In this document: positions 12,331-14,462 of the stretch, piece by piece | Layout of the letters: each line of letters begins with the position of its first letter | How positions within the stretch are numbered: the stretch's first letter is position 1 | Origin: Immundisolibacter sp. | GTDB taxonomy: Bacteria; Pseudomonadota; Gammaproteobacteria; Immundisolibacterales; Immundisolibacteraceae | Assembly (NCBI RefSeq): GCF_014359565.1 | Contig: NZ_JACIZD010000001.1 | Location: 310,001-374,000 of the forward strand | Direction: 5' to 3' | DNA length: 64,000 bases | Program-made: the position numbers and the translations under genes | Notes under the pieces: model-generated | The model's database searches: none | The model's input: only the letters and a program-made list of their open reading frames with translations | Told to the model about the DNA's origin: nothing

Positions 12331-13356
12331 ATGACCAGACTTTGCCGTTCCCTGTTAGCTGTTCTGGCTGTCTTGCCGCTGCTGGCGCGCGCCGACGATC
12401 TTCAGTTGCGGCCCGACCACCCTGACGTTTACGTGGTGGTCCGCGGCGACACGCTGTGGGACATCTCCGGGCGCTTCCTGACCAAACCCTGGTACTGGCC
12501 GCAATTGTGGGGGGCAAACCCGCAGATCGCCAATCCCCACCTCATCTATCCCGGCGATCGGCTGCGCCTGGTGATGACGGCGGACGGCCCGCGCCTGATG
12601 CGCGACGGTCAGGGCCACGGCTCGGGTGGGATATCGCCGCAGGTGCGTGCGACGCCCATCGATACCGCCGTGCCGGCCATTCCGCTGGAGCACATTCAGG
12701 CCTTCCTGGAAGAAGCCGTGGTGCTGCACAGCAACCGGGCGGCTGATTTTGCATACGTTGCCTCGGCCGCGGACGAGCACATCGCGGTGGGCGCGGGCGA
12801 TCGGGTCTACGGCCGCGGTACCGCCGCACAGCCGGGCGAGTCGCTGGACATCTTTCGCATCGGCGAGGCCTACCGCGATCCGGAAAGCGGCGAAGCACTG
12901 GGTTACAACGGGCTGTTCATCGGTCGCGGCAACGTACAGCGTGCCGGCGATCCGGCCACCCTGTCCGTGGCACAGGCGCGCCGCGAGGTGCTCGCAGGCG
13001 ACGTACTGATACCGACCGACGACAGCCCGATGAAGGCGTCCTACATGCCGCATGTGCCGACCACGCCCCTGCGCGGCCATATCATCAGCGTCGTGGATGG
13101 TGTTTCGCAGATCGGCCAGTACAGCGTGGTGGTTCTGAGCCGCGGACAGCGCGATGGGGTGGAACTGGGCCACGTGCTGCAGGTGCGCCAGGTACCGCCG
13201 CCGATCGACGACCCGGTGACCCGCCAGCGCGTGCAGCCGCCCGGTGATCCGGCCGGCACGGTGATGGTGTTCCGGCTTTTCGAGCGGGTCAGCTATGCCC
13301 TGGTGATGACAGCCACCCGGCCCATGCACGTGCTGGACGAGGTCACGCCCCCCTGA
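12331..13356 (+). CDS. Secreted LysM-domain protein upstream of dprA
   Basis: A 341-residue exported protein. The N-terminus MTRLCRSLLAVLAVLPLLARA is a signal peptide, with likely cleavage before DDLQ. One LysM peptidoglycan-binding domain follows at about residues 35-85 (YVVVRGDTLWDISGRFL, then PHLIYPGDRLRL). The remaining 250 residues form the conserved C-terminal region seen in LysM proteins encoded next to dprA in gammaproteobacteria. I use the ATG at 12331 rather than the TTG two codons before. The TGA overlaps the probable CTG start of dprA. Role is likely cell-wall-associated, but unproven. Confidence 0.9.
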   Translation: MTRLCRSLLAVLAVLPLLARADDLQLRPDHPDVYVVVRGDTLWDISGRFLTKPWYWPQLWGANPQIANPHLIYPGDRLRLVMTADGPRLMRDGQGHGSGGISPQVRATPIDTAVPAIPLEHIQAFLEEAVVLHSNRAADFAYVASAADEHIAVGAGDRVYGRGTAAQPGESLDIFRIGEAYRDPESGEALGYNGLFIGRGNVQRAGDPATLSVAQARREVLAGDVLIPTDDSPMKASYMPHVPTTPLRGHIISVVDGVSQIGQYSVVVLSRGQRDGVELGHVLQVRQVPPPIDDPVTRQRVQPPGDPAGTVMVFRLFERVSYALVMTATRPMHVLDEVTPP

Positions 13357-14462
13357 CACCAACCGCCGCCGGCCTTGCCCTGGCCCGCGTACCCGGGCTG
13401 GGGATTGCAGCCTGGCGTCGCCTGCTGGCGGCGTTCGGTTCGCCGTCGTCGGCACTGGGCGCGCATCGCGCGGCGTTGCTGGACTGTCTGGGCGGCAGGA
13501 CGACGCTGGTGGACAAGATCCTTGCCGCGGGCGAAATGCCACCGCGCACCGACCTCGACTGGCTGCAGAATGGCCAGGACCGGCAGGCACTGTTTCTGGA
13601 CCAACCCGGCTATCCCCCACAACTGGCGCATATCGCGGACCCGCCGCTGGCGCTGCTGGTGGAAGGCGATGCCCGCTTGCTGCTGGCGCCCCAGATCGCC
13701 ATCGTCGGCAGCCGCAATGCCTCGCCGGCCGGCCGGGAGACCGCGTTTGCCATGGCCTCGGCGCTTACGCAATGCGGTCTGTTGGTAACGAGCGGCCTGG
13801 CCGAAGGCGTGGACGGCGCGGCCCATCGCGGCGCACTGTCCGGGCCCGGCCAGACGATCGCCGTACTGGGTACCGGACCGGACCGCGTCTATCCGCGCCA
13901 GCACCTGAATCTCGCCCAGGAAATCCGCCAGCGTGGCGTCCTGGTCAGCGAACAGCCGGTGGGCATGCCGCCGCGCAGCTTCAACTTTCCGCGCCGCAAC
14001 CGGATCATCAGCGGCCTGTCGCTGGGTGTGCTGGTGGTGGAGGCGGGCGCGCAAAGCGGCTCCCTGATCACCGCCCGCCTGGCGGCCGAACAAGGGCGCG
14101 AGGTATTCGCCATCCCGGGTGGCATCCACAACCCGCTGGCACGCGGTTGCCACGCGCTGATTCGCGATGGCGCCAAGCTGGTCGAGAACGTATCGGACAT
14201 TCTGGAGGAACTGCCGCCCTTCGAGCGGGGTCTGAGTCCGTTGTCCGCAGCACCGCCGGCCACCGACCGGCCGGCTGCGGCCACCAATCCGGTGCTGGCC
14301 AATATGGGCGACAGCCCGGTCAGTCTGGACCTGCTGGTGGCTCGCACCGGATTGACGGTGGCGGAAGTTTCCACCATGCTCTTGACGCTGCAACTGGATG
14401 GCCTGGTGACGGCCCTGCCCGGTGGCCTGTTTGGCCGCTGCGGTCCGCACCCGGCACGCTGA
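13353..14462 (+). CDS. dprA: DNA-processing protein DprA, probable CTG start
   Basis: DprA binds incoming single-stranded DNA and loads RecA in natural transformation. The Rossmann core is complete: IAIVGSRNASPAGRE, SGLAEGVDGAAHRGAL, IAVLGTGPDRVYPRQH, NFPRRNRIISGLS and GSLITARLAAEQGREVFAIPG, then a C-terminal winged-helix domain. The conserved N-terminal helical domain continues upstream of the first TTG (13476) as LALARVPGLGIAAWRRLLAA. No ATG, GTG or TTG occurs in frame before it; the only plausible start is CTG at 13353, inside the lysM stop (CTGA), with GAGGT nine bases upstream. That gives 369 residues, close to E. coli DprA. Confidence 0.93.
   Translation: MTPTAAGLALARVPGLGIAAWRRLLAAFGSPSSALGAHRAALLDCLGGRTTLVDKILAAGEMPPRTDLDWLQNGQDRQALFLDQPGYPPQLAHIADPPLALLVEGDARLLLAPQIAIVGSRNASPAGRETAFAMASALTQCGLLVTSGLAEGVDGAAHRGALSGPGQTIAVLGTGPDRVYPRQHLNLAQEIRQRGVLVSEQPVGMPPRSFNFPRRNRIISGLSLGVLVVEAGAQSGSLITARLAAEQGREVFAIPGGIHNPLARGCHALIRDGAKLVENVSDILEELPPFERGLSPLSAAPPATDRPAAATNPVLANMGDSPVSLDLLVARTGLTVAEVSTMLLTLQLDGLVTALPGGLFGRCGPHPAR

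Follow-up and report, generated by a model that had tools for sequence, protein, structure and literature searches.

The question raised by this locus is where translation of dprA begins, and why it should begin there. In the window, which is the whole stretch of 64,000 nucleotides of Immundisolibacter DNA that was analysed, dprA follows a LysM-domain gene (lysM) whose 3′ end reads GTC ACG CCC CCC TGA, with the last codon CCC at 13351–13353 and the stop codon TGA at 13354–13356. A preliminary description placed the dprA start at a CTG inside the lysM stop codon. This is confirmed: CTG at 13353–13355 overlaps the TGA, and the pair displays the four-base stop/start overlap of NTGA gene pairs, here CTGA (Table 1). 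The description also held that no ATG, GTG or TTG is found upstream, even in the region overlapping lysM, and none is present between the stop at 13245 and the TTG at 13476. The dprA frame is open from the stop at 13245, and the 35 open codons 5′ of the CTG are devoid of ATG, GTG, TTG, CTG, ATT, ATC and ATA. The length given for the protein, 369 residues, agrees with the 369 codons of 13353–14459, which are followed by a stop codon at 14460–14462.

Table 1. Coordinates of features at and around the lysM–dprA junction of the window
Feature	Positions	Strand	Remarks
Upstream LysM-domain gene lysM	12331..13356	+	Open reading frame with TTG 12325 or ATG 12331 as start; ends CCC TGA
GAGGT, Shine-Dalgarno-like	13339..13343	+	9 bases 5′ of CTG
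CTGA, dprA CTG start on lysM TGA stop	13353..13356	+	4-base overlap
dprA coding sequence from CTG	13353..14462	+	369 codons; PF02481, PF17782, TIGR00732
TTG, first in-frame canonical codon of dprA	13476..13478	+	Rejected as start

The GAGGT motif is found at the distance from the CTG that was first described. It is present in all three genus members compared, though it is encoded by conserved LysM residues. The run of C residues, which had been placed at 13347–13352, is at 13348–13353; the last of its six Cs is the base with which the CTG begins. An insertion or deletion within it cannot alter the dprA frame downstream. Folds of 100 nt at the junction from the three genus members gave z-scores of 0.42, −0.59 and 1.46, which provide no support for a conserved RNA structure.

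The downstream protein is a member of the DprA family, with matches to PF02481 (E 9e-71; 237.8 bits against a cut-off of 29.6), PF17782 (E 9e-20) and TIGR00732 (236.9 bits, above the cut-off of 191.15). It shares with DprA/Smf proteins the Rossmann domain (PF02481), the winged helix (PF17782) and probably an N-terminal helical region, and the initiation codon alone is unusual. Read from the CTG, the N-terminus is MTPTAAGLALARVPGLG. The preliminary description assigned the DprA N-terminal helical domain to the region upstream of the TTG at 13476. The alignments agree with this in position, as the N-terminal domain PF21102 matches residues 6–37 and the closest solved structure, PDB 3maj, aligns from residue 10, but the PF21102 match (E 0.0008; 19.5 bits) is below its cut-off of 22. 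The upstream protein carries a LysM domain (PF01476, E 2e-9) and is presumably TsaP-like.

Two other genomes of the genus offer a comparison, G001, a single contig whose DprA is 93% identical to that of the window, and G002, with 80% identity. CTGA occupies the same position in each of them, and neither has a canonical codon upstream; thus the codon is found in three of three genus members, and the conserved protein has no canonical codon from which it could start. The three junction sequences, acgcccccCTGA, acgaccccCTGA and gtgccgccCTGA, differ in their C-runs, and CTGA is constant. A comparison of the window (locus L001) with G002 (L003) gives 6/6/21 differences at codon positions 1/2/3 over the 40 codons that follow the CTG, with 15 synonymous and seven non-synonymous codons, as is typical of selection on the dprA frame. 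The 35 codons that precede it differ by 3/1/11 when read in the lysM frame and by 12/3/1 in the dprA frame. The selected reading frame switches from lysM to dprA at the CTG. The closer pair, L001 and L002, has too few differences to reveal the switch (4/2/5 after the CTG).

These comparisons bear on two simpler readings of the locus, both of which had been proposed as possible refutations of a CTG start. The six-C run at the junction is the kind of place where a sequencing or assembly error might conceal a normal dprA start. However, G001, an independent genome in one contig, and G002 both have the same CTGA despite different C-runs. The relatives thus refute an error, the chance of which is practically negligible. 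The other reading has DprA begin at the TTG at 13476, the first canonical codon in frame; the product would have 328 residues and would lack the N-terminal helical domain, with the Rossmann and winged-helix domains intact. Yet this TTG is not kept in G002, where the codon is CTG, and dprA-frame selection acts on the 40 codons upstream. In addition, canonical codons are likewise absent upstream of the domain in the CTG-dprA loci of family f152, described below. Initiation at the TTG is therefore very improbable. DprA very probably initiates at the CUG at 13353, judging from the lack of any other start, the conservation of this codon, the frame switch at the CTG and the invariant C in other families. 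When the window was scanned for further CTG starts by comparison with G001 (frames in which synonymous changes outnumber non-synonymous ones ahead of the first canonical codon, judged by eye), the other candidate frames were short and antisense to larger coding frames, and are therefore read as shadows of these.

How common the absence of a canonical start is was assessed in a survey of 209 dprA loci, five of them duplicates (204 distinct; L117 and L287, and L182 and L227, are the same place). The set comprises seven loci from the order, 75 of the 80 in the first match set, 27 from a second match set and 100 of the further matches listed with the latter; partial loci L029, L057, L065, L072 and L085 were dropped. 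ATG, GTG and TTG are all missing in 15 of the 209 loci from 30 codons before to two codons after the conserved LAL motif, and in 17 when the scan stops four codons before the motif. The 17 consist of six from the window's family, three from family f62, two from f4, one from f152, two from Methylobacillus and the singles L034, L134 and L209. When genes flanking dprA were tested in the same manner as controls, each had a canonical start (loci without one: topA 0/40, def 0/72, fmt 0/64, smg 0/70). Within f62, f152 and f4 the controls gave 0/84 for topA and 0/34 for def, and 1/82 for smg, where a chance motif hit in L246 is followed by stops. A search of plasmids gave a single topA match only.

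Two minor observations come from the same survey. In L034, a Thiobacillaceae metagenome-assembled genome, the only dprA start that fits the N-terminus is a CTG, which precedes the conserved motif by four codons; this could be an indel or a genuine oddity. Eight of the dprA matches listed (G220, G139, G118, G247, G069, G051, G152 and G130) contain one in-frame stop, possibly because the alignment overruns the true end.

Three of the surveyed genomes were expanded to their families, f62, f152 and f4, and the sets analysed are the best-scoring 30 loci from 39, 61 and 57 genomes. Plasticicumulans belongs to f62, as L271 shares a 1500-base stretch with the Plasticicumulans locus L075. Among the best-scoring 30 loci, lysM and dprA overlap by four bases in 26 in f62 and in 22 in f152, and every one of these overlaps is CTGA (26/26 and 22/22). 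Neither the open frame upstream of the CTG nor the stretch from it to four codons before the LAL motif contains a canonical codon in 20 of the 26 f62 loci and in all 22 of f152. Four of the remaining six f62 loci have an upstream canonical codon in the open frame, and L253 and L273 have a TTG at codon −10. Where the overlap is missing, canonical starts are mostly at hand: ATG or GTG is available in all four such f62 loci (L271, L272, L277 and L278), and seven of the eight f152 loci without a four-base overlap have a canonical codon within 30 codons. In L237 of f152 the CTG is kept within a longer overlap. A Shine-Dalgarno motif is absent from 24 of 26 CTGA junctions in f62 and from 22 of 22 in f152. 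The CUG start of dprA, conserved in the window's genus and at the same overlap in two further families, is well supported by sequence and larger in extent than first noted.

The C of CTGA is also the third base of the final CCC codon of lysM. A change to CCA, CCG or CCT would be silent in LysM and would convert the dprA start to ATG, GTG or TTG. The final lysM codon is CCC in 26 of 26 f62 loci and in 21 of 22 in f152, the other being CGC, and CCC constitutes 33% (f62) and 26% (f152) of the other prolines in these genes. In f152 the last wobble base is the only invariant column among 32 fourfold-degenerate columns of the upstream gene, and in f62 it is one of four among 46, in a test that took CTGA loci only and in which shared ancestry acts on both sides of the comparison. 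The CTGA filter removed just four (f62) and eight (f152) loci, since no other four-base overlap is found there. In the window's genus, 48 of 119 fourfold lysM sites (∼40%) differ between L001 and L003, and the retained C, seen in three species, would be only mildly informative taken alone. Other lineages have CCA-TGA, CCT-TGA or CCG-TGA at the same junction, with ATG, TTG and GTG starts, or CCA-TAA. Thus a weak codon is not required at this overlap.

Family f4 has a different arrangement. The upstream stop is ∼12 bases before the dprA start, and the genes do not overlap. In 14 of 31 rows, codon −14 is a CTG preceded by an AAGGA-like motif (L303 was dropped from the set because of a wrong frame). 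Within L279–L307 the same homologous codon is TTG in three relatives and ATG in one, and it is on this basis that codon −14 is marked as the start. The family thus provides a ready set for the study of start-codon evolution, with CTG, TTG and ATG switching at one homologous position.

The sister genus g2 (L004, L005 and L006) also has no ATG, GTG or TTG before the conserved start region of dprA. In L006 an ATT overlaps the lysM stop (TAATT) and follows GGAG; L005 has ATC, ATC and CTG as candidate codons; L004 displays no clear candidate, and CTG is thus not clear in every g2 member. The possibility that the start was lost once, in an ancestor of the whole family, was considered and set aside. 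As g2 is apart from the window's genus on the DprA tree and its codons differ, a common origin is not claimed. In two Methylobacillus loci (L011 and L016, at about position 2962) ATAA overlaps the TAA stop of lysM with GGAG five bases before it, suggesting that dprA there starts at ATA.

On a FastTree phylogeny of 140 DprA proteins, CTG users are scattered among users of canonical codons, with f62, f152, f4 and the window's genus at different places. At least 14 changes between canonical and non-canonical labels are needed on this tree, whose deep forks are weak. In L008 and L009, the rows closest to the window's genus, an ATG could serve as the start. A repeated origin of the CTG start is likely, but not settled, from this distribution.

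How might such a start function? CUG constitutes 0.024% of bacterial starts and has 0.86% of the efficiency of AUG, according to a published account (PMC11497404). A CUG without a Shine-Dalgarno motif should hardly initiate alone. The CUG at 13353 would be decoded by the initiator tRNA as formyl-methionine, and ribosomes that complete lysM would reinitiate at the overlapping CUG of CUGA, perhaps aided in the window's genus by the GAGGT nine bases upstream. Translation of dprA is probably coupled to that of lysM by this termination–reinitiation. Because CUG is very poor for independent initiation, synthesis of DprA would be largely tied to translation of LysM and kept low; a low output is what we infer from the codon. 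The conservation of the codon tilts the balance slightly towards selection keeping the dprA start weak. Its retention suggests that the cell has to avoid LysM-independent production of DprA, or else has to hold DprA at a low level. Taken as a whole, the account of a CUG start, reinitiation from lysM and a retained weak codon seems quite likely. A broader version, which we put at just short of an even chance, is that in several gammaproteobacterial families selection holds dprA on a CUG at the lysM stop, as a filter that almost never lets free ribosomes start, admits only those that have just finished lysM and fixes a low ratio of DprA to LysM. If true, the strength of the following gene depends on a silent base in a proline codon, and evolution holds this one-base control at its weakest setting.

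The CTG may, on the other hand, be the start and yet be merely tolerated: coupling would make the codon unimportant, with the C kept by chance, ancestry or codon bias. The variety of codon and stop combinations at this junction in other lineages speaks for this, as does the placement of CTG users in separate clades among canonical users. But a codon of no consequence should also appear as ATG, GTG or TTG, and A, G or T is found at this base in none of the 48 four-base overlaps of f62 and f152; CCC, moreover, is a minority proline codon in both families. We regard mere tolerance as rather unlikely. A quite different reading dispenses with initiation at the CTG, in that a −1 ribosomal frameshift on CCC would join LysM and DprA and the CTG would be read as leucine within the fusion. 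Ribosomes can pause at a proline codon that precedes a stop, and dprA is in the −1 frame at every CTGA junction, both of which would suit a frameshift. However, the base before CCC, which would pair in a −1 slip, varies (G18 C7 A1 in f62; C14 G3 T3 A2 in f152). In f4 there is no overlap between the two genes, and the frame offset of the upstream stop varies. Furthermore, the LysM N-terminus resembles a signal peptide, so a fusion would be expected to export DprA. A frameshift is very improbable, and initiation at a retained, weak CUG remains the preferred reading.

Parts of this arrangement have precedents. Conserved near-cognate starts are found in infC and pcnB, both with AUU, and that of infC is autoregulated by IF3. 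The dprA codon resembles these in being conserved, poor in initiation and possibly regulatory; it differs in its position on a stop codon and in its recurrence across separate lineages of a single gene. NTGA is the most frequent spacing of gene pairs, and coupling by reinitiation has been demonstrated for pairs that overlap (PMC6728339, PMC12548453). The lysM–dprA pair shares with them the overlap of start and stop codons in two co-oriented genes, but has C as its N, which does not vary at this junction in two families and one genus, and the CTGA junctions of the two families are mostly without a Shine-Dalgarno motif. No CUG case of an NTGA overlap was found in the accessible portions of these two papers, and a literature search found no paper that combines dprA, CUG and initiation codon.

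To our knowledge, common gene finders do not offer CUG starts. As CUG is also rare as a start, annotations of dprA in these families probably truncate the gene or misplace its start. The junction constitutes a natural experiment, in that one silent base toggles between AUG, GUG, UUG and CUG with the upstream protein untouched, and all four are present in relatives. The role of start-codon strength during reinitiation thereby becomes directly testable.

A reason for linking the two proteins may come from Acinetobacter baumannii, where efficient transformation requires the LysM-domain protein TsaP and is impaired in dprA mutants as well (PMC8811193). If the LysM protein of the window is TsaP, this would provide a reason to link LysM and DprA. 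A further feature of the LysM protein is that its C-terminal residue is proline in many lineages (CCC, CCT, CCA or CCG before the stop), whichever start codon dprA has. A terminal proline can slow termination, and perhaps slowed termination at this residue might favour reinitiation.
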